Assembly: GCA_020883125.1 (NCBI GenBank)
Contig: JAHREW010000004.1
Location: 50,236-114,235 of the forward strand
Origin: Microcoleus sp. CAWBG506
Lineage (GTDB): Bacteria > Cyanobacteriota > Cyanobacteriia > Cyanobacteriales > Microcoleaceae
DNA: 64,000 bases
Direction: 5' to 3'
Below, piece by piece: positions 28,694-63,466 of this stretch (positions are counted from its first letter, which is position 1; each line of letters begins with the position of its first letter). Position numbers and translations under genes: made by a program. The notes under the pieces are model-generated. The model saw nothing but the letters and a program-made list of their open reading frames with translations, ran no database searches and had not been told where the DNA came from.

Positions 28694-30100
28694 CTAGCGC
28701 CCAATTTCAACATCTTCAAGGATACCAAGTGCGTCAGGTACTAGCACGGCTGCGGAGTAATATGCAGTAACAAGGTAGGACATAATCGCCTTTTCACTAA
28801 TACCCATAAATCTAACAGATAGGCCTGGTTGATATTCGTCGGGTATTCCTGTTTGTTGTAAACCGATCACGCCCTGATCTTCTTCGCCAGTACGCATCAC
28901 AAGAATAGAACTGGTTTGGTTCTTGGTGATGGGTATCTTATTGCAGGGAAGAAGAGGTACACCACGCCACGCAATAACTTTACTCCCGTCCATGTCGAGG
29001 TTTGGTGGATAGATGCCCAAGCGGTTACACTGCCGGCCGAAGGCTGCAATAGTGCGAGGATGGGCTAACAAAAACTTCGACTTTCTGCGGCGAGTAAGCA
29101 ATTCATCTAAGTCGTCAGGTGTAGGCGCACCAGTGCGGGGATGAAGACGCTGTTTAAGGTCAGCATTGTGCAGTAAACCAAATTCACGGTTATTGATCAA
29201 TTCATATTCTTGACGTTCCCGTAATGCCTCAATCGTCAGACGTAATTGTTGTTCCGTCTGGTTCATTGGTTCATTATACAAATCAGCGACGCGAGTATTG
29301 ATCCTTAACACAGTTTGGGCAATACTTAACTCATATTCGCGGGGAGAAAGTTCGTAGTCAACGAAAGTCCCTGGTAATTGAGTTTCTCCAGTATGTCCTG
29401 AAGATAAAGCAATGGTGGCTTCACCCTGCTTATTCTGTGGTAATTGTGCGCGAGTTACGGCTCGATCGATATGAGTCTGTAAAGCCTCCGACTGGTTCAG
29501 AATTTCCCTAAACGCTTGTTGTGGTAAGCTTAATACTGTGCATCGAGTCACAGCTTTAACCGTAAACTTCCAATTGCTTTGAGATGCTACTAAAGCTTCA
29601 TCGCCAAAATGATCCCCATCAGCTAACCCACCTAATAAAGGTTCTTCTTCATATTTGGGAAGACCAAATTTATTAAGTTTACCATGAGCGATCAGGAAAA
29701 GTCGATCGACTGGTTGACCTGATTGTACAATAATGTCACCAGAAGCAAACTCCTGTTGCACGAAGCGACTAGCTAAAGCTGTTAAGACTTCAACATCATC
29801 AAAACCTCGCAATAAGGGTAATTCGGTCAGTTCTTGAGGAATTACCTCAATATTTGCACCTGTATTCGTAAAAGTAATTCGTCCATCACCTAAAGTATAG
29901 GTTAAACGACGGTTTACCCGATAATTACCACCTTTGATCTGCACCCACGGCAACATCTTCAACAACCACCGCGAGGTAATTTCCTGCATTTGCGGTGCAG
30001 ATTTAGTTGTTGTTGCCAAATTACGGGCTGCTGCTGTACCTAAACTCTGTTGAGGTTGTCCATTCTCAACCTCCAAACTCGAATCATTAGAATATGTCAT
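28694..30100 (-). CDS. Family 2B encapsulin shell protein with cNMP-binding domain (copy 2)
   Basis: 468 aa. It has an N-terminal arm ([34 protein letters not shown]), an inserted cyclic-nucleotide-binding domain at about residues 95-210 ([33 protein letters not shown]), then an HK97-like shell region ([20 protein letters not shown] to [20 protein letters not shown] and [18 protein letters not shown]). These match the family 2B encapsulins, earlier annotated as cyclic-nucleotide-binding proteins beside terpene synthases. It would self-assemble into a cytoplasmic protein shell. It is last in the terpene synthase cluster, 371 bp after copy 1. Confidence 0.85.
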
Positions 30101-30146
30101 TACCTCATCCTTTACTTACTAACAAAAATACCCGCTCTAATAGGTG

Positions 30147-30365
30147 ATATCAAATCCGGTTCCATCGGAATTAATATTACCCGGAATCAGGAAACGGCAA
30201 TGCCGTGTCCCTACAATTAATTGGGGTAGTCCAAGGGCAATGCCGTGTCCCTACAATTAATTGGGGTAGTCCAAGGGCACTGCCGTGTCCCTACAATTAA
30301 TTGGGGTAGTCCAAGGGCACTGCCGTGTCCTCCATATCATGTCTGAGTGCAACCGGAATTTATAT
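30147..30365. repeat. MITE-like ends enclosing a 40-bp tandem repeat
   Basis: The unit TGCCGTGTCCCTACAATTAA plus TTGGGGTAGTCCAAGGGCAA occurs at 30201-30240, 30241-30280 and 30281-30320, with a further 10 bases. It is bounded by ATATCAAATCCGG (30147) and CCGGAATTTATAT (30353-30365), near-complementary ends like those of the 24415 element. It lies between the two encapsulin genes and could separate their transcription. Confidence 0.8.
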
Positions 30366-30471
30366 GAGAGGTTAAGACGATTGTTTTGTCAATAATTACT
30401 GGATTTAACGCTTAAAATAGAGCGTAATTACCGATTGACAAAAATCAATTACCTTAACCTCTCAAAACCAA

Positions 30472-31881
30472 TTAACGACCGATTTCGACATCTTCAAGGA
30501 TGCCGAGGGCGTCAGGAACTAGGACGGCTGCGGAGTAGTAAGCTGTGACGAGATAAGACATAATTGCCTTTTCGCTGATGCCCATGAAGCGGACAGATAA
30601 GCTAGGTTGATATTCGTCAGGGATACCAGTTTGATGTAAACCGATAACGCCTTGTTTTTCAAGACCAGTGCGCAGTAAGAGGATAGAACTGGTGCGGTTA
30701 TTGCTGATGGGCATCTTGTTGCAGGGAAAGATTGGTACACCACGCCAAGCTGGAACGTGGTTGCCGCCCATTTCCACACTTTGGGGATAAACACCCATAC
30801 GGTTACATTCACGCGCGAAGGCTGCGATCGTGCGGGGATGAGCGAGGAAGAAACCAGGGTCTTTCCATACTGTCGCCAACAATTCGTCCATATCATCGGG
30901 TGTAGGTGCGCCCGTGCTGCTATAGATACGTTGTTTGAGGTCTGCGTTATGTAATAACCCAAATTCAGGGTTATTGATCATTTCGTGTTCTTGACGCTCC
31001 CGTAATGCTTCCACTGTCAGACGTAATTGTTGTTCAGTCTGATTCATTGGTTCATTATACAGGTCAGCAACGCGAGTATTGATGCGTAAAACGGTTTGTG
31101 CGATGCTTAAATCATATTGACGAGGTGAAAGATCGTAATCAACGAAAGTACCTGGTAACTCAATTTCACCGCGATGTCCCGCAGATACATTAATAGCAGC
31201 TTCACCTTCGCCAGTTTGTGGCTGACTGAGGAGGACGCGGAATTGATCGACTTGAGTTTGTAAAGCTTCTGACTGACTAACCAGTTGTTCAAATGCACTT
31301 TGAGGTAATGCTAAAACAATACATCTCGTGACAGCTTTGAGGGTATATTGCCAAGTATCTTCAGATTGTACTAAAGCTTCATCACCAAAATGATCGCCAT
31401 CAGCGAGTACATCTAAAACAACTTGTTCGTCATACTTGCCAAGACCAATCTTGTTAACTTTACCACGGGCGATCAATAATACTTGATCGGCTGCTTGACC
31501 TATTTCAACGATCGTGTCCCCGGCTGCAAATTCTTGCTGTACAAATTGGTTCGCCAACGCGGTTAAAACTGCTGTGTCTTCAAAACCTCTTAACAAGGGC
31601 AATTCAGTCAATTCTTGGGGAATTACTTGGACAGTTGCGCCAGTGTTGGTAAAAGAAACTCGTCCATCACCTACGGTATAGCTTAAACGACGGTTAACGC
31701 GATAGACACCACCTTTGGTTTGTACCCAAGGTAAAAGTTTTAATAACCACCGTGAGGTGATTTCCTGCATCTGTGGTGCAGATTTGGTGGTTGTTGCCAG
31801 ATTACGGGCTGCGGCTGTACTTAAACTTTGTTGAACCTGTTGATTCTCAAGATCTGAACCTGAATCATTAGAATAGGTCAT
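30472..31881 (-). CDS. Family 2B encapsulin shell protein with cNMP-binding domain (copy 1)
   Basis: 469 aa, same architecture as the downstream copy: N-terminal arm ([20 protein letters not shown]), inserted cNMP-binding domain at about residues 95-210 ([33 protein letters not shown]), and HK97-type shell domain ending in the identical [18 protein letters not shown]. The copies are most alike in the arm and shell and most different in the sensor domain and the loop after it (about residues 205-235). It begins 179 bp after the geosmin synthase stop on the same strand. Two shell isoforms could form mixed compartments responsive to different ligands; that is inference. Confidence 0.86.
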
Positions 31882-32060
31882 GATTTAATTCTCGACTTTC
31901 TGGTTACTACAAAAACGCGGTTTCACTTTACCAAATACCGATAAAGAAAAACCGAAGTGGACAAGAGAGATTATCTGGTAAAAAGGTTACGATGAGATTT
32001 TTTTTTACAAAAATATACAATCTCAACATTTTGACAAACAGAGATAATTTGAATCAAATT

Positions 32061-34337
<2,277 letters not shown>

Positions 34338-34344
34338 CTATTTT

Positions 34345-36770
<2,426 letters not shown>

Positions 36771-36920
36771 ATAAAATTTAACAAAATACTTTTGTGAAGC
36801 AGAGCGAGCGATCGCACATCTCTTGACTGCTCAGAAAAGCAGATTCAGTCCCGAATCTGTTCCGGTGTCAACAAATTCAGATCCCACCGTCAAGCAAAAC
36901 TAAATCCTTGACATCCACAC
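36771..36920 (-). pseudogene. Decayed copy of the Nudix hydrolase 3' end
   Basis: About 150 bp aligns by eye with 24577-24730 in the same orientation (shared blocks include TCGCACATCTC, TCCGGTGTCAACAA, TTCAGATCCCA and TCAAGCAAAACTAAATC). Indels and substitutions destroy the reading frame. The intact gene lies at 24545, on the other side of folD and the island, so this is a duplicated border fragment. Confidence 0.85.
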
Positions 36921-37063
36921 TAATAAATTTCTGTGCAACAACACCCGTAAAATGATTAAATTGAGTCTCAGATTTAGGTCGATCCGCCCCCCTAAAAGTC
37001 GGCGCGATCGACCAAAACAACTCAAAGTATCCTTTCGTCACATTAAGTACAAGAGAGCAAGGG

Positions 37064-37990
37064 ATGGTATTGGCAACAGAAATGGATTCGTCCCAACCGG
37101 AATCCGCTTTCGACTTATCTACTTACCTAGTCGAACAGAAAAAGGCGATCGAGGTAGCTCTCGACAGTGCGCTACCGGTCATCTACCCAGAGAAAATTTA
37201 CGAAGCCATGCGCTACTCGCTCCTAGCAGGTGGCAAAAGGCTACGTCCCATCCTGTGTCTGGCAGGGTGCGAAATCGCCGGTGGCACGAACCACATGGCA
37301 ATGCCAACAGCTTGCGCTGTGGAAATGATTCACACCATGTCGCTGATCCACGATGATTTGCCGGCAATGGACAATGATGACTATCGGCGCGGCAAACTGA
37401 CTAACCACAAAGTCTACGGCGAAGACATCGCAATTTTGGCTGGCGATGGTTTGTTGAGCTATGCCTTTGAATTGATCGCCACTAAAACTGAGAACGTACC
37501 CCCCCATCTGGTATTGCAGACGATCGCCCATTTAGCGCGGGCATCTGGCGCTCCTGGACTCGTAGGCGGTCAGGTACTTGACCTGGAATCGGAAGGATTG
37601 AAAGATGTTTCTATAGAAACTTTGACCTACATTCACGCTCACAAAACCGGCGCGCTGTTAGAAGCCTGCGTAGTTTGTGGGGCAATTCTGGCTGGAGCGT
37701 CGGCTGCGGATTTGCAGCGGCTTTCTCGTTTCGCTAAAAATATTGGGCTAGCTTTCCAGATAATTGATGACATTCTGGATATTACTGCTACGGCAGAAGA
37801 ACTTGGTAAAACCGCTGGCAAAGATGTTCAAGCTGGAAAGGTGACTTATCCTAGCCTGTGGGGCATTGAGGAGTCAAGCCGTCAAGCTAAACAACTTGTT
37901 ACTGATGCTAAGGCTCAACTGGCAGTGTTTGGGAATAAAGCCCAACCGCTGTTGGCGATCGCAGACTATATTACCAGTCGCAGTTATTAA
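37064..37990 (+). CDS. crtE: Geranylgeranyl diphosphate synthase (CrtE)
   Basis: 308 aa trans-prenyl transferase making GGPP (and possibly FPP) for carotenoids, phytol and quinones. The first Asp-rich motif is [15 protein letters not shown] near residue 97, the second IIDDILDIT near residue 234. GGKRLRP near residue 57 and [10 protein letters not shown] are also standard. The ATG at 37064 is preceded by AGAGAGCAAGGG. It lies one base pair or so upstream of the DUF212 gene, a pair often found together in cyanobacteria. Its product class feeds terpenoid synthesis, so proximity to terpene synthases could matter, but the neighbours look imported. Confidence 0.93.
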
Positions 37991-38585: not shown

Positions 38586-39710
38586 ATGCTCCAAAGACTA
38601 TATGTAAACAACTTCAGATGCCTAGAAAACTTTGAACTGCTCATAAAGGGAATGCCATCTGCTCTCTTGATTGGAAAAAACGGTGCAGGTAAATCAACTA
38701 TTGCCTCTGCATTAGAAGTCCTTCAGAAGATTTGTCGAGGCATCAATAGAATGCGTGACCTTGAAAAACTTAACCTTATTAGCCCGAAAGATTTCGCTCG
38801 TGGAAAGTCTGATGTTCCGATTCGGTTTGAAATAGAAGTATTACTCGAAGATAAATTATATAAATATGTCCTTGCCTTAGACTTGCCAGAAAAATTTAGA
38901 GAGCTTCGAGTTTTTGAAGAACAACTGCTAGTTGCAGGAGAACCAATTTACTCTCGAAAAGAAGCCCAAGTCACTCTTCACACCATCTCCCAAAATCGTG
39001 AAGCTCAGTTTATGGTAGATTGGCATCTTGTTGCCCTGCCAGTAATTCAGAAGCAATCTGAGACTGATCCGCTTCATATTTTCAAGACTTGGCTTGCTCG
39101 CACGATCATTTTAGCCCCGATTCCCAGCTTGATGACTGGAGACTCAAACGGTGAAACTTTGGAGCCAAAGCGAGATGGTTCAAACTTTGGGGAATGGATT
39201 TCTGGGTTACTCAGTCGCTATCCTGCCGCCTACACACAGGTTGATAAATATCTCCGAGAAGTGATGCCTGACATTCAGGATTTTCTGAATGAATTAATCG
39301 GCAAAGACTCGAAAAGCATGATTGTTCGGTTTGAAGAAAATAATGCGAATCTGAGTATTGAATTTAATGACTTATCAGACGGGGAAAAATGCTTTTTTCT
39401 TTGTGCTGTCGTCTTGGCTTCCAACAAATTTTATGGCCCACTTTTTTGCTTCTGGGATGAGCCTGACAACTATATCTCATTATCAGAGGTTGGAGATTTT
39501 GTCACATCATTACGACGCTCATTTCAGGGTAACAGTCAAATTTTAGTGACATCTCATAATCCTGAAGCGATCCGAAAATTTTCAAATGAAAATACCTTTG
39601 TACTCGATCGAAAAAGCCACTTGGAGCCAACTTTAGTCAGATTACTCAGTGATATACCTGTACCGGGCGACCTTATAACGAGTTTAATCCTGGGCGATAT
39701 AGAACTATGA
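38586..39710 (+). CDS. AAA/ABC-type ATPase of a putative two-gene defence module
   Basis: 374 aa. The N-terminus MLQRLYVNNFRCLENFELLI is typical of SMC/RecF/OLD-like (AAA_21) ATPases. Walker A is GKNGAGKST at residues 30-38, the signature region DLSDGEKCF near 264 and Walker B FCFWDEPDNY with D291-E292. SQILVTSHNPEAIRKF carries the H-loop. There is no own nuclease domain. Its stop overlaps the start of the next gene (ATGA), implying coupled translation. ATPases of this type pair with TOPRIM-type effectors in OLD/Gabija-like and PARIS phage-defence systems. The DNA is poorer in GCGATCGC than its surroundings. Confidence 0.75.
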   Translation: MLQRLYVNNFRCLENFELLIKGMPSALLIGKNGAGKSTIASALEVLQKICRGINRMRDLEKLNLISPKDFARGKSDVPIRFEIEVLLEDKLYKYVLALDLPEKFRELRVFEEQLLVAGEPIYSRKEAQVTLHTISQNREAQFMVDWHLVALPVIQKQSETDPLHIFKTWLARTIILAPIPSLMTGDSNGETLEPKRDGSNFGEWISGLLSRYPAAYTQVDKYLREVMPDIQDFLNELIGKDSKSMIVRFEENNANLSIEFNDLSDGEKCFFLCAVVLASNKFYGPLFCFWDEPDNYISLSEVGDFVTSLRRSFQGNSQILVTSHNPEAIRKFSNENTFVLDRKSHLEPTLVRLLSDIPVPGDLITSLILGDIEL

Positions 39711-40192
39711 AAGTAAATAGGGAGCAACCACACCTTCTTGTGTTGCCAGAAGATGATGCCAATCGCCAGATTTTCAATGGATTTATTAATCACCTTAGCG
39801 TTAATAAGAGTGCAATTAAAGACCTACCGATTGCTAATGGTTGGACAAAAGCTGTGGAACAATTGCGGAAGAATCATGCGCATGGAATGCGACAATATCT
39901 ACAAAGAAGGATTGTTTTGATCGTTGATTTCGATCGGGATGAAAATCGCTTGAGTTATGTAGAGAGTCAAATCCCAGACGATTTAAAAGAAAGAGTATTC
40001 ATTCTTGGAGTGCAATCTAACCCAGAAGATCTAAAGAGAGCCACCAAAAAGAGTTTTGAAGATCTCGGAAAAGCTCTGGCACAAGATTGCTCTGATAATA
40101 CGAATGAATTATGGGGGCATGAGCTCCTGACACACAACAAAACTGAGTTAGAGCGTATGGTTTCATCTGTTAAACCATTTTTGTTTAATTAG
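39707..40192 (+). CDS. Putative TOPRIM-like effector coupled to the AAA ATPase
   Basis: 161 aa, not a recognised named family. The pattern LLVLPEDDANRQIFNGF (acidic residues 15-17 after a hydrophobic strand) and RRIVLIVDFDRDEN (D74-x-D76-x-D78 after another strand) fits the E...DxD arrangement of TOPRIM nuclease/RloB-like folds. The rest is alpha/beta with ERVFILGVQSNPEDLKR. The start overlaps the ATPase stop by four bases. Because the ATPase lacks a nuclease domain, this is the natural effector candidate. A DUF4276/DUF4435-like assignment is possible, but I cannot confirm it. Confidence 0.6.
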   Translation: MKVNREQPHLLVLPEDDANRQIFNGFINHLSVNKSAIKDLPIANGWTKAVEQLRKNHAHGMRQYLQRRIVLIVDFDRDENRLSYVESQIPDDLKERVFILGVQSNPEDLKRATKKSFEDLGKALAQDCSDNTNELWGHELLTHNKTELERMVSSVKPFLFN

Positions 40193-54568: not shown

Positions 54569-54603
54569 ATATCAGGATTCTAAAAAAGAAAATCAATCAT
54601 AAA

Positions 54604-54897
54604 TCAATACGGGATGCGGGAAACGAGGGAGACTTCAGTCCTTCCTAGGGAAGCGGTGCGAGGGATTTCACTGGCCCGTGTTCTTTCTTTCTTTCTTTCT
54701 GTCTTTCTAAATATTTTGTCCATCGAGCTTGAGATATCTAGTATAATAGCTAAAAGTAGACAAGTCAACCTATTTTTAGGAAAATAGAGGTGAATCAAAC
54801 CCAAAAAACAATGGGACTTCAGCAAGTATTGATGTCTCATAACAAAGAAGTTAAAGCATTGTTGGAATATCTCTGCCAACAATCAGGTAAACGGTAA
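54604..54897 (+). pseudogene. Broken tnpB element at the border of the helicase island
   Basis: From the GTG at 54790 the frame reads NQTQKTMGLQQVLMSHNKEV and KALLEYLCQQSGKR then stop, i.e. only the first 35 codons of a TnpB like the one at 27083 (VQQVLLNPDPETKAILQYLC). The upstream flank 54606-54675 also matches the left flank of that element, but the small divergent gene is lost and a TTTC microsatellite (54684-54714) has grown there. The break is followed within 105 bp by the helicase gene, marking the edge of an insertion. Confidence 0.85.
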
Positions 54898-55002
54898 AAT
54901 AGTGTTGTTGATTTGGTTAGTTAAACTTTTTTTAAGATAGGTAAACTGTGCGATCTGCTATTTTGGTTGTAGGATATCCAGATAAAAAGGTGATAACACG
55001 TA

Positions 55003-58000
55003 ATGCAAAAACAAACAGACTCTCTTAATCAGCGGTTAGAATCACCTCGTTCCAAAATTATTAATTCCTACCTTGGAACTATTGAAGATAGCTTTAAAGA
55101 AAACCGTCCCCAACTAAAACTAATCAATTATGGTACGGGGTCAGGAAAAACTCACCAATTGTTTGAAGCAATTTATCAAACAATAGAAGAAAATAAAGAT
55201 ATTCAAATAATCGGTATATATGTTGCCCCATTGAGAGAACACTTATCTGTTCCTACTTCAGTTGAGATCAAATACCAAAATATTACCGTCTATAAACTTC
55301 TTTCCGAAGAAATGAAAACGACGGATGAGTATCTCAAATTATACAAACAATTGATATCTTCAATCCTCAAAAACACCAAAACTTGGAACCTCGCTAAAAA
55401 AGTATGTCCTGATGAAAAGGTTCAGGAAAATCGACGAAACCTTGAGAAAGTAAAAGATGTGATTAAACGCCTTGAATATGTAAAAAACACAAGTTTTGGA
55501 GATGAGGCTTTTAATAAATCTGAGATTAAGAAAATAGAACAGGAACTGAATAAGTTAATTGAAAAGTTTTTAGAATTTTTCATCAAATGTGAATTAGATC
55601 AAAAAAATTGTCCTGATGAATGTTTACAGTTAATTGAAATATTTTTGCCCCTTCATCTTCTGCAAAAAAAATCTGGGATTTTGATGCTCACCTATGCTAA
55701 ATTTGAAACGGCTATTCCGTACTTTATCCACAACGGTACAAAATGGGTCAAGAAAAGTAGTTATCTCGATCAATACGTTATTCAGCATACAGACAACTCC
55801 CGAAAGTTTATCCTGGCCTTAGACGAGCAAGAAGATGGCTATCAAATTATGCTAAAGGAGAAGATTGATATCATCTCTCCTGAAAAACTGGCAATCAATA
55901 ATGCGCTATCATCTATGAATAGAGAATTTTCTATGCTGTTTTCAACTAAAAACAATGAAAACAGAGATTTTTTAAATTTCATAGATAAGAATAAGGGAGC
56001 TTTTTACGAATTTCAAGAATACTTTGAAAAAGACAAAACCCTCGAACCCAAACTGCAAAATTTTGCCCAGACATATCAACGGTTGACCTTTGAGGAGGGA
56101 AACTCTATCAATTTTTTAGAACAAATAGTAAGAATTCAAAAATCTCTTGACAAATCAATGGAAGAAATTGTTGGAATTTTCGACAATAATGATGAACAAA
56201 ATTCCATCATAGTAGATTTTGAAATGTTATCCAGAGTTATTTCAAAATTCGAGAATAATAGAAGTTTATTGATTCCTCAAAAGCTTTACAATAAAATATG
56301 TGATGATTTAATGAACATTTTTGCATACAACAACCTATACATCTACAACCTCGAACCCCTGCAAAAATTGTTTTTAACCAAACCTTCTGGCGGGCACGTC
56401 CAAATCGCCGAGGAAAAAGTTGCAGATAATACTTCTGTAGCAGAGTTAATTTATGCCATTCTAGCTGTGCGATCGCAAATCAAAACCATCAAAGATTTTC
56501 TAGCTAACGTCTTAGATGCTGAAGATTCTCAATCCCATTCTTTAGAAATTTGGTCAGAACAAATAACTAAAGTCCAAAAGGCAATTGAAGAAAGCCCCTC
56601 GCAAAATAAACTGCTAAAATACTTAAATACTGCTTATGTCTATGAAAGTTATAAGTCTATCATAAATATCAAAGAAATTTCTCGTTATCAAAATCCTAAA
56701 AATAATCTGATAGATCGCGCTCTTAGAGAAGTTTCTATTGGTAGTACGGCTATATTGACTTCGCCTGAATTCAAGATAAAATCCATGTTATGCAATAATA
56801 GTAATGTGATTTTTCTGATTTCAGCAACAGGAGGAATTTTAGGAGATTTAAGCACTAGCTATGATATGCAGTATTTCAAAGATAAATTGCGGAATGCTAG
56901 TGAATCCGGTGAAAGTTCCTTCAAGGAAATGAGCGATGAAGAAGTGTCGCTTTGCGAAGAAATCAGAGAGAGTCGTGAAGCGAAGCGACAGATTGCAGTA
57001 AAGTTTTTCGGTGAGGATTTATTGTCTTTCCCAAATAACGAAACTCAACAAGTGGTGGAACGATTTGAAGAAACTATTTTAAAAAGTTTTATCGACGATC
57101 TCAAACAGGATGGGAATTGGCTGGGTATTTACAAAATCCAAGAACTTCAAAAGTTTGTTCGTTTCTTGTTTTACCTGTTTGAGGATGACTCAATTCAAGA
57201 AACAATTGCTTTTACTCAAACTCTACGCTGGATTGAACAGTTAATTCAACATTGCGAGCGGCTCAATCATGCTAACTTTCTATTTGAGGTGTCATCAGAG
57301 CATCCAAACATATATTATGTGGAAGTGAAGCATAATAAATATCAGAGTAAAATTCGGATTAAAATAATTTTGTATAAGGCATCATTCAACAGTCTTTACT
57401 GCGACAAACAAGCTCATCACACGTATTTGGATGAGCTTGTTGAAAAAGAAGGGGAAAAAATCTTCTTTATATCCGCTTATCAATCAGCTTCCAAAGGATT
57501 GAATCCTATCATAAAAAACCCTAACGGCGATGAAAAAGATTTCGACTCTTTAATTTTGTTAATGGACAGTTACTATACAGTAATGAGCCCATCGGTTAAC
57601 AAATCAAAAGATTCTGGATTATCTATGACGCTTTACCATTTTGCATTAATGAAAAGTATTGTAAACTTGGGAGAGTCTGATCTTGAAATCAAAGATTTTA
57701 ACAAATACCTCAGCAAACCAGAAGCTGGAGCATTTCGAGAGCAGCAACACCAGATTTTATTAGGGAAACAAGTTTTGCAAGCTATCGGCAGATCTGAGAG
57801 ACGCGATTTTCCAAGCCAAGTGGTAAAAATATTTGTTAATGAAGAAACTAGAAAAAATTTAGTGAATTTTTACAGATACCTGGAAGGGAAAGAAAAGGAG
57901 GAAATTCGTAAGTTTTCTGTTAACAACCACACAGTTTACTTAAGCGTTCGAGAAGAAGAGAAAAAACGAGCAATTAAGGATTATGACGATCATGTTATTG

Positions 58001-58956
58001 ATGAGATTGATGCCACTCTGGCTTTTCAAGAGTTTAGAACAAAAATGTTGGAGGAAATCGATCGCTTTCATCTTAATAAACATACTTTTGATATCGCAAA
58101 AGCGTGGGATGCGTTGCGTGACCCAATTGTTTTCAAAGATCCAGCCAAGTATCTGGAAAAGTTGCGAAATTCAGGGCTATTTGCTGATGATTTTATTGAG
58201 TCATTATTCTATCACAACCCAGAACAAGTTGAATTTATGCCATATTTAGCTTCCGAGGAAGAAAGCGGCCAAAAGTTCCAGATTATTAGCGATAGTATCA
58301 ATGGAGAAAAAATATATCCTTATCAAAAGCGGTTATATCCTGAATATCTAAAGATAAATTATCGAGGCTATGACTTAGAAGGTAATGAAATTAGTTCGCT
58401 AGATGCTTCGACTGATTTAATCTACAGACTGTACAACAAGTTGATGCCACAACCGGAAGTTTTTAATACTTATATTCCGCGCCCGCATTTCTTTTACGAT
58501 GTCTTGTATCCCTCACTGGCTGAAAATTTTGTGGAACGCTGGATTCAAGATGTAGTTTTCAAAGGCAAAGACTGGAAAGACATAAAAGCCACCTATGGTT
58601 TTGAGCCATTGCAAAATTTCAAAAAATATCGTAAGCTATACGAGCGGTTTGATTTGTACTATGTCAAGGATAATACGCTATTCTGTATTGATGTTAAAGC
58701 TTGGAGCGTAGCTTCGGGTAATCGCCTGTCTAAAAAGACGCTGGATAAAACCGAAAACAAGCTGAAGGCGATTGTTTCAGACTATCCAGAATTTAGCACT
58801 GCGAGAGGGTTACTTCTTAACTTGCACGCCGCCCAAGAAAAAAATCAACAATACTCACCCATGTTATTTTCGGGAAATTTGATTTTTTTTGACGATCGCA
58901 ATTGTCCAGTAGAATCCAATATCCTCAGAGATTTTTTGTTTCACAAGGAGAAATAA
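55003..58956 (+). CDS. Superfamily 2 helicase with C-terminal PD-(D/E)XK-like nuclease (DdmD-like candidate)
   Basis: 1317 aa. Helicase motifs: I GTGSGKT (44-50), Ia VAPLREHL, Ic ILMLTYAKF, II DEQED (274-278), III SAT (607-609), V SAYQSASKGLN (824-834), VI QAIGRSERR (926-934). A long helical insert lies between I and II and a large one between II and III. The C-terminus has a nuclease-like core: RFDLYYVKDN with D1217, and FCIDVKAW with D1230 and K1232. The next gene starts one base after the stop with a good ribosome-binding site. A helicase-nuclease followed by a 700-800 aa partner resembles DdmD of DdmDE, which destroys plasmids. AT-rich unlike the flanks, hence probably imported. Confidence 0.72.
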   Translation: MQKQTDSLNQRLESPRSKIINSYLGTIEDSFKENRPQLKLINYGTGSGKTHQLFEAIYQTIEENKDIQIIGIYVAPLREHLSVPTSVEIKYQNITVYKLLSEEMKTTDEYLKLYKQLISSILKNTKTWNLAKKVCPDEKVQENRRNLEKVKDVIKRLEYVKNTSFGDEAFNKSEIKKIEQELNKLIEKFLEFFIKCELDQKNCPDECLQLIEIFLPLHLLQKKSGILMLTYAKFETAIPYFIHNGTKWVKKSSYLDQYVIQHTDNSRKFILALDEQEDGYQIMLKEKIDIISPEKLAINNALSSMNREFSMLFSTKNNENRDFLNFIDKNKGAFYEFQEYFEKDKTLEPKLQNFAQTYQRLTFEEGNSINFLEQIVRIQKSLDKSMEEIVGIFDNNDEQNSIIVDFEMLSRVISKFENNRSLLIPQKLYNKICDDLMNIFAYNNLYIYNLEPLQKLFLTKPSGGHVQIAEEKVADNTSVAELIYAILAVRSQIKTIKDFLANVLDAEDSQSHSLEIWSEQITKVQKAIEESPSQNKLLKYLNTAYVYESYKSIINIKEISRYQNPKNNLIDRALREVSIGSTAILTSPEFKIKSMLCNNSNVIFLISATGGILGDLSTSYDMQYFKDKLRNASESGESSFKEMSDEEVSLCEEIRESREAKRQIAVKFFGEDLLSFPNNETQQVVERFEETILKSFIDDLKQDGNWLGIYKIQELQKFVRFLFYLFEDDSIQETIAFTQTLRWIEQLIQHCERLNHANFLFEVSSEHPNIYYVEVKHNKYQSKIRIKIILYKASFNSLYCDKQAHHTYLDELVEKEGEKIFFISAYQSASKGLNPIIKNPNGDEKDFDSLILLMDSYYTVMSPSVNKSKDSGLSMTLYHFALMKSIVNLGESDLEIKDFNKYLSKPEAGAFREQQHQILLGKQVLQAIGRSERRDFPSQVVKIFVNEETRKNLVNFYRYLEGKEKEEIRKFSVNNHTVYLSVREEEKKRAIKDYDDHVIDEIDATLAFQEFRTKMLEEIDRFHLNKHTFDIAKAWDALRDPIVFKDPAKYLEKLRNSGLFADDFIESLFYHNPEQVEFMPYLASEEESGQKFQIISDSINGEKIYPYQKRLYPEYLKINYRGYDLEGNEISSLDASTDLIYRLYNKLMPQPEVFNTYIPRPHFFYDVLYPSLAENFVERWIQDVVFKGKDWKDIKATYGFEPLQNFKKYRKLYERFDLYYVKDNTLFCIDVKAWSVASGNRLSKKTLDKTENKLKAIVSDYPEFSTARGLLLNLHAAQEKNQQYSPMLFSGNLIFFDDRNCPVESNILRDFLFHKEK

Positions 58957-58957
58957 A

Positions 58958-61288
58958 ATGAAAAATAAAATAGCAGCTTTATCAGATATATCGCGAACCA
59001 ACCAACTAAAAATATCAGAAAATCTACAACAAGTTCCCGAAAAACTGTTTCAGTATTTATTTAAAATGGGACAAGGGATAGAACATTTTATTCTTGAATA
59101 TCGGCTTGCTGAAGATGAAAATTCTGAGAATGAAGATTCACGGGCTAGCTTTTATAAAGAACGGCATAAATACATTAAAAATGAAATCAAAAAAAGGCTG
59201 GCTGAATATGGGAAAGAACGGGAAAATTCAGACATTCAATACTTCCTATCCTATACGGGTGGCAAAAAATATGTGTTCTTTTTATCGCCCAATAAAAATC
59301 ATTCTGGATGGCAAAAGTTATTTACAGACAATTCTAGCGATCGAGAAAGAATCTTCAACCTCATTTTCAAGTTTTATATTCTGTCTCAAGGCTTATCCGT
59401 TGAAACAATTAATGGCTTTGAAGAATTACTCTTACTCCATTCCAGATACATTCCACCTAAATCGAAAGACAAAGATCTTTTAGTGTGGGGCCAAAATTTA
59501 TTAGTCAAATACAATCAACATGGTGTACTCACATTAACCTTATCTCGAAAAAGGCGACGCTTTTTACCAAAGGATCAGTACAGTACCATAGATGGTGATG
59601 ATTTAGGAGATTTGTTGGTCTACAATAAAAAGAACTACTACTTCGATCGCGATCTAGATGCTCGCGCAAAAAATGATATTTATTTTATGCAATTCGATAG
59701 CGATCCCAAAAATTACGATAAGTTCAAAAAGACTCAGCTTTATCATTACCAAAACCTCATGACAAAACTTGAGGGCTTTTTAAGTGAGTGCCAGATTAAA
59801 TTTAAATCTCTTGATTTTCAGGCTGACCACTACTTGGAAAACCCTTTCATCAAAAACATAGGATCTGTAGAATTCTTAGAGATTATTAACAATACAGGAG
59901 TCGATTTAACTGAATCTGACAGACCATTTCTGCAATGCTTCCTGAAACATCAAGGGGTATCTACGATTGTATTTTACAAGGATGGGAAAACTGTCAGTAC
60001 CTACGAACAAGTACCTGACGGTGAGGATGAAGTTTGCTGGAGAATTACGGAATCTATTAAATGGTCAGATATTCAACTCGAAGCAGGAAAAAACTATCTG
60101 GTTTTAAATAAACTTTTGGAGGAAGAAGCAGGTTCGATGGCTTATCAGACAAAAGACAATCTGTGGTATCCATCAACAACAATAGATAATAAATCGTCAG
60201 TAGATTTCTATTCACAGTTAAAGAAAAGATTTAACTATTTGGAGACGGGACAGTTTTTTAGCACACAGGGGATAAATATACCAGAATTTCGTGCTGTGGG
60301 AGATGAAAAAACTAATTTTGCGGTTTTTAATTATACAAATTGGAAAATCGATCGAGATCGAGATAGTCTACACAAGGAGACACAAGATTTTACAGAAGGG
60401 AAAATATTGGATGTAGAGGGCTCTATTTTTTGTTATCTAAAAGAACAAGCAGATAGCAAACAATGGGAAAGTTTCTGCGAACGATACAAGATAAATCTTT
60501 CCCCAGAATTTCAGAAGGTATTGATTGAGTTGGGAATTAAGAACTGGATCGCACAGAGTCTTGCAAATCCGAACTTGGGCTTGCGTATTACTACTCCTCA
60601 ATCATTTTCTGAAAAACAATTTTTTAGTATTTATGTACGCAGCCCCAAAAAAAAGGAAGCTAAAGCGGTTGCGGTAGAATTTCTGTACAAAGATGGTTAT
60701 ATCTATATAAAAAATGTAATCCGAGATATGAAACAAATAGAAACGAAATTTCGATTTTTAAGAAAGCGAAAAAACAAGTCAGAAAAATTAATTAATGATC
60801 AGAAAATTTTTGTAGATGACGCAGAAAAGCTGTATATTAGTTGTTATAAAGACGACTTTTATACGCCAACATTAATTGGACGGACTGGTATTATTGAAGA
60901 CTTGGAAAGCGGAGAACTAACAATAGATCGAAAAAATAAAGGTGAAAATAGTAGTAGATTGTTACCTTTGGTATCCCATTACAACAGCGAGATTAAACCT
61001 ATTAACAGAATCCAAAAGATGATATCTTTGGATTTGAAGAAGGAAACGTTTATTCAGTATTATGTTCCTCTCGCACAAAGTGTTGGGGAAGTGATAAAGA
61101 AAGGTTTTAGAGTCTATCATTTGATTGGGAAGACATATTCAGGAGAGTCAATTCCCACATCTGAGCTGATCGAGCATCCCATCACAGCTTTACATTTGAG
61201 TACGCTAACTCACAATGTTTTAAAAATCGGGGAAAACAGTCAATCGTCATTGTTACAAAAAGTAGCACAAGTATTAATTGAAAATTGA
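58958..61288 (+). CDS. Partner of the helicase-nuclease, possible Argonaute-like (DdmE-like) protein
   Basis: 776 aa, no motif I can name with certainty. The start ATG at 58958 is set by AAGGAGAAATAAA directly upstream. The C-terminal 150 residues (SRLLPLVSHYNSEIKPINRI, FIQYYVPLAQSVGEVIKKGF, ELIEHPITALHLSTLTHNVL) have the alternating strand/helix rhythm and the final P-x-x-x-x-H-L-S type element that prokaryotic Argonaute/PIWI-like C-termini show, but no clear catalytic tetrad is visible. Many prokaryotic Argonautes acting in defence, including DdmE, are catalytically dead. PIWI-RE proteins and an unrelated DNA-binding subunit are alternatives. Confidence 0.5.
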   Translation: MKNKIAALSDISRTNQLKISENLQQVPEKLFQYLFKMGQGIEHFILEYRLAEDENSENEDSRASFYKERHKYIKNEIKKRLAEYGKERENSDIQYFLSYTGGKKYVFFLSPNKNHSGWQKLFTDNSSDRERIFNLIFKFYILSQGLSVETINGFEELLLLHSRYIPPKSKDKDLLVWGQNLLVKYNQHGVLTLTLSRKRRRFLPKDQYSTIDGDDLGDLLVYNKKNYYFDRDLDARAKNDIYFMQFDSDPKNYDKFKKTQLYHYQNLMTKLEGFLSECQIKFKSLDFQADHYLENPFIKNIGSVEFLEIINNTGVDLTESDRPFLQCFLKHQGVSTIVFYKDGKTVSTYEQVPDGEDEVCWRITESIKWSDIQLEAGKNYLVLNKLLEEEAGSMAYQTKDNLWYPSTTIDNKSSVDFYSQLKKRFNYLETGQFFSTQGINIPEFRAVGDEKTNFAVFNYTNWKIDRDRDSLHKETQDFTEGKILDVEGSIFCYLKEQADSKQWESFCERYKINLSPEFQKVLIELGIKNWIAQSLANPNLGLRITTPQSFSEKQFFSIYVRSPKKKEAKAVAVEFLYKDGYIYIKNVIRDMKQIETKFRFLRKRKNKSEKLINDQKIFVDDAEKLYISCYKDDFYTPTLIGRTGIIEDLESGELTIDRKNKGENSSRLLPLVSHYNSEIKPINRIQKMISLDLKKETFIQYYVPLAQSVGEVIKKGFRVYHLIGKTYSGESIPTSELIEHPITALHLSTLTHNVLKIGENSQSSLLQKVAQVLIEN

Positions 61289-61525
61289 AACAAGGCTGAA
61301 TTTGAATGCTGATTCCAGAAAAAATCCAGATATTTCAGCGATCGGAGAAGATCGTCGGATATACTCACATCTGGTCTGAGGCCGGAGACAAGTATCAATG
61401 TCAGCTAGAAGCCAACCTGTTACTTAGAGCCGATCGAAGAGTGCGATCGCCATTTAGACTGGTAACTTGGCCAACCATACGTGCCATAATCAGCCATATT
61501 CTCTGGTATGCGATCGCCCGAACCT

Positions 61526-63283
61526 ATGGATGCGCTAATCGGCAAAACTTTACAGGGTGGAAAATACACCCTCGAACAAGAATTGGGAAGAGGCGGCTTT
61601 GGGATTACCTTCAGAGCAACTCACCGCTATTTAGGACAATTTGTAGTCATAAAAACCCTCAACGAATCTCTGCGACAGCAACCCAATTTTGCGGAGTTCG
61701 ATCGCAAATTTCAAGACGAAGCCAGACGCCTAGCCTCCTGCGTTCATCCCAATATAGTCCGCGTCAGCGATTTCTTTGTCGAAGACGATCGCCCTTACAT
61801 GGTAATGGACTACATTCCAGGGCAGAATTTGGGCGATGTCGTATTGCCAAATCGACCGCTTCCAGAAGCAGTCGCCATTATATACATACAGCAGATTGGC
61901 GCGGCTTTGAAGGCAGTTCATCAAAAGAATTTGCTGCACCGAGATATCAAACCACAAAACATTATTCTGCGCCAAAACACCCAGGAAGTTGTGTTAATTG
62001 ATTTTGGCATAGCCCGCGAGTTCACTCCCGGTGTCACCCAAAGTCACACTAATATGGTGTCCGACGGTTACGCGCCGCCAGAACAGTATTTTGCCCAAGG
62101 AAAATACACGCCCGCTACAGATGTTTACGGTCTAGCTGCGACGCTTTATACTTTGCTAACTGGACAAGTGCCGATGCCGGCAGTTTTTCGCCCCAGTCAG
62201 CCGATGGCTACACCCCGCGATTTACAGCCTCAGCTAAGTGCGGCCATCAGTCAAGCGGTGATGCGAGGGATGACTTTAGATGCTGAAAATCGCCCTGGTA
62301 CTGTGGATGAGTGGCTGTCACTGCTACGGAATTCCCCGGTGTCCGTTACCGGCCCGACGCTGGCAGTGATGCCGGGACACGGGCCTATGATGCCTGCGGG
62401 ATCGAGAACAGCGCCTGCTGTCGTGCCTTCTGGGGCTGGGGAAAGTAAAATTTGGTTGATTTTGGGGTTGGTGGCGATCGCCCTTATTTTCGCAGGATTT
62501 GTGGGTATAGCGAGGATTTTGCTGAACAGGCCCTCAGCAGCACCCGCACCGGTGGCCAAGGACGATCGCACTTCTGCACCCGCCACTCCAGAACCGCGCG
62601 ATAATAACCGACAGACTCCAATCCCCGAACCGGCCTTAACTCCCACACCCGCGCGACAAACTCCAACTCCGGAACCAGAAAAGATTCCAACTCCCAAACA
62701 AACTCCCACGCCGACGGTAGAAACTCCCACGACGCCAGCCCCAACACCAACTCCTGCGGCCGAGTCCCCCGCACCAAGGAATAAACCTGTTGAAGAACAA
62801 AGACCGATCGATCGAACCTCGCCTACACCCTCACCCTCACCCCGCCCAGAACAACCAGCCACAACTTATCAAAAAGTTCCTACAATACCTGGTTTTCCGG
62901 TTGGTACAGCGGAAAACCAGGTAATAGCTGCCTTGGGAACCCCAACAGACACTCAAGCCAAGGGCTATTGGCCCAATACTCGCACCGCACTTTACGAAAT
63001 ATTGCCCAATCGGATTACTCTCGGCTACATATACGATCGCGATTCGGGCCAGTTAGTACAAACAGAGGGTTCTTTTGCTCAGTCTGTGGATGACTTGGTA
63101 GTGCGAACCGCGTTAAACGGGATGTTGGGCGGGGCCGATCGAGATATCATGCAAGGGTTCCTCCATGTGCAGCAGCGGCGGACTAATCGGTTTACTTTTA
63201 AGAAGGGTTCCCTCGAAGGTACGATCGAACGCAACAATCGCGATCGAATTTACATCGGCGTCTGGGACGAAAACTTGCATTAA
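61526..63283 (+). CDS. Membrane-anchored Ser/Thr protein kinase
   Basis: 585 aa from the ATG at 61526 (MDALIGKTLQGGKYTLEQEL); an ATG at 61508 is a possible alternative. Hanks-type kinase: Gly-rich loop GRGGFGITFRA, VAIK-type VVIKTLNE, HRDIKPQN, DFG in LIDFGIAREF, and APPEQY. One TM helix (IWLILGLVAIALIFAGFVGI) follows at about residue 315. A Pro/Thr-rich linker (about 345-450) leads to a C-terminal extracytoplasmic domain (PGFPVGTAENQVIAALGTPT, YWPNTRTALYEI) shared by cyanobacterial kinases of this type. Likely a sensor of envelope conditions; ligand unknown. Confidence 0.9.
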   Translation: MDALIGKTLQGGKYTLEQELGRGGFGITFRATHRYLGQFVVIKTLNESLRQQPNFAEFDRKFQDEARRLASCVHPNIVRVSDFFVEDDRPYMVMDYIPGQNLGDVVLPNRPLPEAVAIIYIQQIGAALKAVHQKNLLHRDIKPQNIILRQNTQEVVLIDFGIAREFTPGVTQSHTNMVSDGYAPPEQYFAQGKYTPATDVYGLAATLYTLLTGQVPMPAVFRPSQPMATPRDLQPQLSAAISQAVMRGMTLDAENRPGTVDEWLSLLRNSPVSVTGPTLAVMPGHGPMMPAGSRTAPAVVPSGAGESKIWLILGLVAIALIFAGFVGIARILLNRPSAAPAPVAKDDRTSAPATPEPRDNNRQTPIPEPALTPTPARQTPTPEPEKIPTPKQTPTPTVETPTTPAPTPTPAAESPAPRNKPVEEQRPIDRTSPTPSPSPRPEQPATTYQKVPTIPGFPVGTAENQVIAALGTPTDTQAKGYWPNTRTALYEILPNRITLGYIYDRDSGQLVQTEGSFAQSVDDLVVRTALNGMLGGADRDIMQGFLHVQQRRTNRFTFKKGSLEGTIERNNRDRIYIGVWDENLH

Positions 63284-63376
63284 GAAGGAAGAAGGAAGAA
63301 GGAAGAAGGAAGAAGGAAGAAGGAAGAAGGAAGAAGGAAGATTTCAGTGTGGAACAGGCCCTCCAGCCTGTTCAAA
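63284..63376. repeat. GAAGGAA tandem repeats and palindrome
   Basis: AGAAGGA heptads run from 63285 to 63339, like the array at 10699. GTGGAACAGGCC...CCTGTTC is a short palindrome at 63350-63376. Confidence 0.85.
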
Positions 63377-63466
63377 AAGAATGCTGCTCAGCTTCCTACC
63401 AAAGTCTAAAATTTAAAATCGAGTTGACGTCATACACAATCATGTCTATCATGAAAGTATGCACGA

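Follow-up and report, generated by a model that had tools for sequence, protein, structure and literature searches.

What is encoded by two closely spaced genes, one for a long SF2 helicase with a nuclease domain and one for a partner of no evident family, is the question raised by a locus of Microcoleus sp. CAWBG506 lying in a 64,000-nucleotide stretch of contig JAHREW010000004.1 (positions 50,236 to 114,235; hereafter the window, meaning this whole stretch). A preliminary description drawn from the letters alone had offered two answers, a DdmDE-like system or an undescribed two-gene system. We find that the pair is very probably an ApsAB system of a cyanobacterium and belongs to the accessory genes, its role in defence against plasmids being suggested by the E. 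coli homologue. ApsAB was described in 2024 from E. coli ST38 as a helicase/nuclease that removes plasmids together with a new type of Argonaute-like protein, and ApsAB-like systems are reported to occur in cyanobacteria (Zongo et al. 2024, PMC11096173). The idea of an undescribed system is ruled out by that publication, and the pair is a distant, intact and new member of an already described system (Table 1). Among the papers listed by searches of the open literature for ApsAB, and for cyanobacteria together with DdmD, none is by its entry devoted to cyanobacterial ApsAB.

Table 1. Features of the candidate apsAB locus, in window positions
Feature	Position	Strand	Remarks
apsA-like gene, 1317 amino acids	55003..58956	+	SF2 helicase with C-terminal PD-(D/E)XK nuclease; motif II placed by eye
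apsB-like gene, 776 amino acids	58958..61288	+	Argonaute-like partner; motif as published for ApsB (PMC11096173)
Accessory segment carrying the pair	54601..61471		Missing in G026 and G011 of the same genus, which have ~87 other bases there
35-codon open reading frame remnant, unique left flank	54790..54897	+	Recognised by eye; presumably what the preliminary description called a broken transposon gene

Both open reading frames begin with ATG, and a single base separates them. They are real, intact genes, since six loci recovered by a pattern scan of species genomes (L001-L006) encode both proteins in the same order, the partner directly downstream in 6/6 and internal stops nowhere, at 71-87% (helicase, over nearly full length) and 63-83% (partner) identity to the window proteins. 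The preliminary description had placed its helicase-nuclease and 776-residue protein correctly to the base. Its remark that the DNA is AT-rich also stands, the guanine-plus-cytosine fraction being 0.347 in the helicase gene and 0.344 in the partner gene versus 0.447 in the rest of the window. The scarcity of GCGATCGC that it reported holds in part: the one site in 6312 bp is a low count against a mean of 4.5, but lies inside the range of 0-9 found in 98 overlapping stretches of equal size to the left of the pair. Reference libraries place neither protein: Pfam returned nothing beyond weak helicase matches below its cut-off, PADLOC had no match to the pair, NCBIfam had none of relevance, and sequence searches of the PDB, run both for single proteins and for profiles, yielded nothing meaningful. 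Such searches were no more productive for E. coli ApsA and ApsB, to which no solved structure had a meaningful match.

The identification is carried instead by motif residues read against a secure reference. An E. coli locus reached by similarity (L014) is ApsAB, because every ApsA and ApsB motif residue checked in it stands at its published number: GFGKS 218-222, DELH 532-535, SAT 823-825, QAVGRVER 1140-1147, D1420 and D1433-V-K1435 in ApsA, and Y409, K413, Q431-G432, K489 and N743 in ApsB. With this locus the window pair shares the gene order, the helicase motifs, the D...DVK nuclease core, the ApsB motif and a C-terminal EN. In the window helicase, the SF2 pattern of ApsAB (GxGK[ST], DExx, SAT, QAxGRxER) is satisfied by GTGSGKT 44-50, DEQE 274-277, SAT 607-609 and QAIGRSER 926-933, and the columns of motif I, SAT and QAxGRxER that were checked agree in 13/13 aligned helicases. 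The nuclease core proposed earlier from the sequence (D1217, D1230, K1232, of the PD-(D/E)XK type) is borne out, all three residues being present in each of the same 13 rows; these take in helicases from E. coli (20.3% identical to that of the window) and Acidovorax (21.5%), and three of the rows are near-identical E. coli copies.

The partner carries the published ApsB motif Y[X]3K[X]nQG[X]nK as Y418, K422, Q437, G438 and K528. The first four of these share columns with the published ApsB residues in 13/13 sequences, and the fourth motif position, K528, comes to lie opposite E. coli K489 after a gap shift, through a local E[LI]xxK that is likewise present in all 13. Furthermore, the protein ends in an asparagine (N776) whose column is kept in every row. 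MID-type residues that bind the 5' end of a guide are common to ApsB and the long prokaryotic Argonautes (pAgos) (PMC11096173). An ApsB fold would be loosely pAgo-like while missing typical PIWI and PAZ domains. The window protein has no recognisable PIWI domain, there being no Pfam match to the partner at an expectation value (E) of up to 1 and no PF02171 in the window genome. The partner is strongly diverged, as had been said, with Argonaute-like residues of the MID type; the Argonaute-like C-terminus also tentatively ascribed to it is not seen as such, the checked Argonaute-like signature being the MID-type motif at 418-528 and the terminal asparagine.

Work on the E. coli system suggests how such a pair may operate. 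There, plasmid loss needs both genes and is abolished by K221A and E533A in the helicase and by K413A in ApsB, with a partial effect of K1435A in the nuclease, and the plasmid is gone within hours after induction (PMC11096173). By analogy, the window ApsB (776 aa) would most probably grip a short guide nucleic acid by its 5' end, using a MID-like pocket formed by Y418, K422, Q437, K528 and the C-terminal N776; once loaded, it would locate and mark plasmid DNA and then recruit or load ApsA (1317 aa), whose SF2 helicase would unwind the plasmid and whose PD-(D/E)XK domain would cut it, with plasmid loss as the outcome. Action in the manner of E. coli ApsAB, the use of a guide and the identity of that guide are all inferred for the window pair from its relative, and according to the authors the nature of ApsAB guides is still to be characterised (PMC11096173). 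Intact cyanobacterial members at ~20% identity help show which residues are essential, and the window pair suggests a natural plasmid barrier in the genus Microcoleus, which would bear on the genetic engineering of such cyanobacteria.

Several points weigh against an ApsAB assignment. The window proteins are 20.3% (ApsA) and 23.2% (ApsB) identical to those tested in E. coli, and at such a distance function can drift; the guide, target and activity of the cyanobacterial member would all follow by analogy with E. coli. Motif II of the window helicase rests on placement by eye, MAFFT having misaligned it, and the MAFFT column of E. coli K489 is variable, with A532 as the window residue there. No Pfam family matches the partner at E up to 1. 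Structural support is lacking as well, both AlphaFold models being of very low confidence (partner, mean predicted local distance difference test (pLDDT) 39.2 and predicted template modelling score (pTM) 0.34; helicase residues 118-1317, mean pLDDT 35.5 and pTM 0.25), probably because alignments of seven close sequences lacked diversity. Finally, comparison of the partner with a pAgo profile is at chance (score 20.1, reached by 5/40 permuted controls; the profile holds 14 of 17 Piwi loci, one shorter than 600 aa being left out and two not extracted). DdmE and the pAgos are truly related, and as a positive control their profiles scored 20.3, reached by 1/40 permuted controls. Because this control is itself near chance, the negative results for the partner against pAgo and, below, against DdmE carry little weight.

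The most serious competing explanation accepts the parts and disputes the target: the cyanobacterial branch may keep the ApsAB components and aim them at phage or other mobile DNA, or act through cell death. The ~20-23% identity to the tested member would allow this, as would two differences in build: the stretch from the motif Q to the motif K of ApsB counts 91 residues in the window, where E. coli has 58 and Acidovorax 39, and window ApsA is missing the N-terminal extension of ~170 residues found in E. coli (motif lysine 49 versus 221). The host also differs, a cyanobacterium here and E. coli for the tested system. However, in the E. coli work eight phages were not affected by ApsAB, no evidence of killing was available to the authors, and an E. 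coli system at 28/25% identity was still anti-plasmid (PMC11096173). We therefore consider a changed target improbable and an anti-plasmid ApsAB the better reading.

The same differences invite a proposal to which we give about as little credence, namely that the pairs from cyanobacteria make up a third, deeply separated subtype within an ApsAB/DdmDE superfamily, perhaps with a different guide or another class of invader. It draws on the cyanobacterial pairs being about as far from E. coli and Acidovorax as those two are from each other (ApsA: cyanobacterial-E. coli 20.3%, cyanobacterial-Acidovorax 21.5%, E. coli-Acidovorax 18.1%; ApsB, in the same order: 23.2%, 21.1% and 22.5%), and on the reshaped guide-binding region, with 33 more Q-to-K residues than in E. 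coli, together with the absent N-terminal extension.

Much further from likely is that the window pair is a diverged DdmDE, in which a DdmD-type helicase-nuclease would be recruited by a DdmE-type, DNA-guided and catalytically dead Argonaute. The two systems (DdmDE as in 9ix4, 8u0u and others) do share a two-gene design in the same order, and profile evidence makes ApsA and DdmD remote homologues: hhalign of 13 ApsA sequences (11 kept by the program) versus eight DdmD gave a score of 171 (E 7.6e-19) spanning the SAT motif through the nuclease, against at most 27.9 for 40 column-permuted controls, 25.0 for a reversed profile and 32.1 for generic SF2 (16 RecG). The signal was also present in subsets, at 80.6 for the nine cyanobacterial sequences, 60.4 for the four from E. 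coli and Acidovorax and 69.0 for the window alone. The profiles of DdmD and DdmE were built from eight pairs. Six of these come from cyanobacteria and the other two, which rest solely on tblastn to the DdmD of locus L021, from Persicobacter and Lactobacillus; plasmid matches from Lactobacillus delbrueckii and Cetobacterium were left out.

Despite this shared ancestry of the helicases, the window pair stands apart from DdmDE. A tree of 21 rows splits ApsA from DdmD at 100/100, with the window on the ApsA side in a cluster with L001 and L023 at 94/92; the program warned of long branches. The PADLOC DdmD model matched neither the window helicase (E up to 1) nor anything in the window genome (E up to 10). 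True cyanobacterial DdmDE is, in contrast, readily recognised: two weak matches to the ApsA profile in cyanobacteria (G076, G232) proved to be genuine DdmDE pairs, both called DdmD by PADLOC, and that from G232 (L021) matches the solved DdmD 9ix4 at 1.3e-54 and the solved DdmE 9iw3 at 8.1e-14, while in the same kind of test the window partner had no PDB match up to E 10. PADLOC finds DdmD genes in 6/194 cyanobacterial genomes, and pairs are present in six genomes (L020, L021, L035-L038), the DdmE test having been confined to L021; the contig with L038 equals in length the Nostoc plasmid with L039. As for the partner, its score against the DdmE profile is 24.4, near chance in that 2/40 permuted controls reach it, so that it is not detectably a DdmE; the best local match, which is not significant, is nonetheless co-located in the two (profile columns 235-297 versus 236-297). 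DdmE is also described as having no MID-like motif (PMC11096173). Long pAgos, the other conceivable relatives, occur in 17/194 cyanobacterial genomes (PF02171), and the partner has neither a Pfam Piwi match nor, in what is a weak test, detectable profile similarity to them. The earlier DdmDE-like label thus survives for the design logic and the remote DdmD homology and fails for membership, on which PADLOC, PDB and the tree agree; the profile-profile comparison it had called for shows remote DdmD homology for the helicase and is near chance for the partner.

An ApsAB identity also fits with how the two genes travel together. The partner lies directly downstream in 12/12 full-length homologues aligned (L001-L006, L012, L014, L023, L024, L026, L027), and the order apsA then apsB is conserved across Cyanobacteriota, Acidovorax and E. 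coli (L025 included). Occurrence is patchy. Of 59 near genomes, five have the partner, the window's own included and G003 with a match that is partial and lies at the end of a contig, and a helicase profile matched 4/386 sampled genomes of the phylum, the only full match being the window's own; L001 and the same-genus G028 apparently represent one contig. E. coli DNA as query led on to intact copies, with matches in 147/5426 E. coli genomes (spanning 80% or more of the query in 141), and all 152 places are chromosomal. In plasmid records, the window helicase found two matches at 20-23% identity, one in Acidovorax and one in an E. coli record with the helicase gene split into several open reading frames, while the window partner as query found none. 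The E. coli partner as query detected an isolated 170-aa apsB end in an Oceanisphaera plasmid record (L028). Viral contigs held no relative for any of four queries, and none was found in phage records. Decayed copies include a split apsA (L013) and an apsA truncated near IS1 (L042).

The locus is accessory, because two close relatives of the same genus have an empty site at which the two flanks of the window locus adjoin. That the helicase-nuclease is a stand-alone DNA repair enzyme beside an unrelated neighbour is scarcely credible: it has recognisable motifs by itself and the partner is without a family in the libraries searched, but the homologues are not lone enzymes, the pair co-occurring in all 12 from cyanobacteria, Acidovorax and E. 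coli, and it is missing from the matching site in close relatives.

In two relatives (L001, and L023 in G025), an unbroken match to the window starts at ~54987 and takes in both genes of the pair and the protein kinase gene after them, with other neighbours on the left. Upstream of the kinase gene (window 61508), gene content varies among 20 genomes of the genus, G026 and G011 among them, several sharing 192- and 217-aa genes; the slot holds, by species, apsAB, an HNH-like gene (by eye), a gcvT-like block or others (L146-L165), and looks like a variable insertion site. The left edge of the accessory segment coincides with a ~100-bp dispersed repeat (54597-54700) that has many partial copies in the genus. 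The broken transposon gene earlier placed at this border is confirmed in part: it presumably corresponds to the remnant in Table 1, and the genome has partial copies of that DNA at other places, one of them on contig C45 (79% over 192 bp). A 231-aa open reading frame at 61306-62001 was considered as a third gene of the system and rejected, since its frame differs from that of the kinase gene with which it overlaps, and Pfam has no match to it. KKEEGRR-type repeat units, seen by eye in the translated reading frame, occupy the end of the kinase gene and the stretch just beyond (63165-63416).

Comparison of the homologues' neighbours, likewise called for in the preliminary description, showed that E. 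coli copies sit in islands, some of them near toxin-antitoxin or AbiE-type genes. L014 lies in an island ending at a tyrosine integrase and tRNA-Leu ~13-15 kb away, L025 and L026 follow toxin genes of the CbtA and RelE types at a distance of a few kb, and L027 directly follows AbiE-type genes and a TerB/ATPase/helicase cluster, which we read as Shango; Shango and AbiE are described as apsAB companions in such islands (PMC11096173). In Acidovorax, a TIR-domain gene comes 440 bp after the pair.

Elsewhere in the window, a doubled encapsulin-terpene synthase cluster lies within 28694-37990, with two SrpI-like encapsulin shell genes carrying cNMP-binding domains (28694-30100 and 30472-31881, both on the minus strand) adjoining a tandem pair of genes for terpene synthases (755 and 753 aa, minus strand) and a polyprenyl synthetase gene (37064-37990, plus strand). 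At 38586-40192 (plus strand), a gene for a 374-aa AAA_21-type ATPase, with AbiLi and HEC-01A as best PADLOC matches, overlaps one for a 161-aa protein without a Pfam match, and these two are possibly another two-gene defence system.

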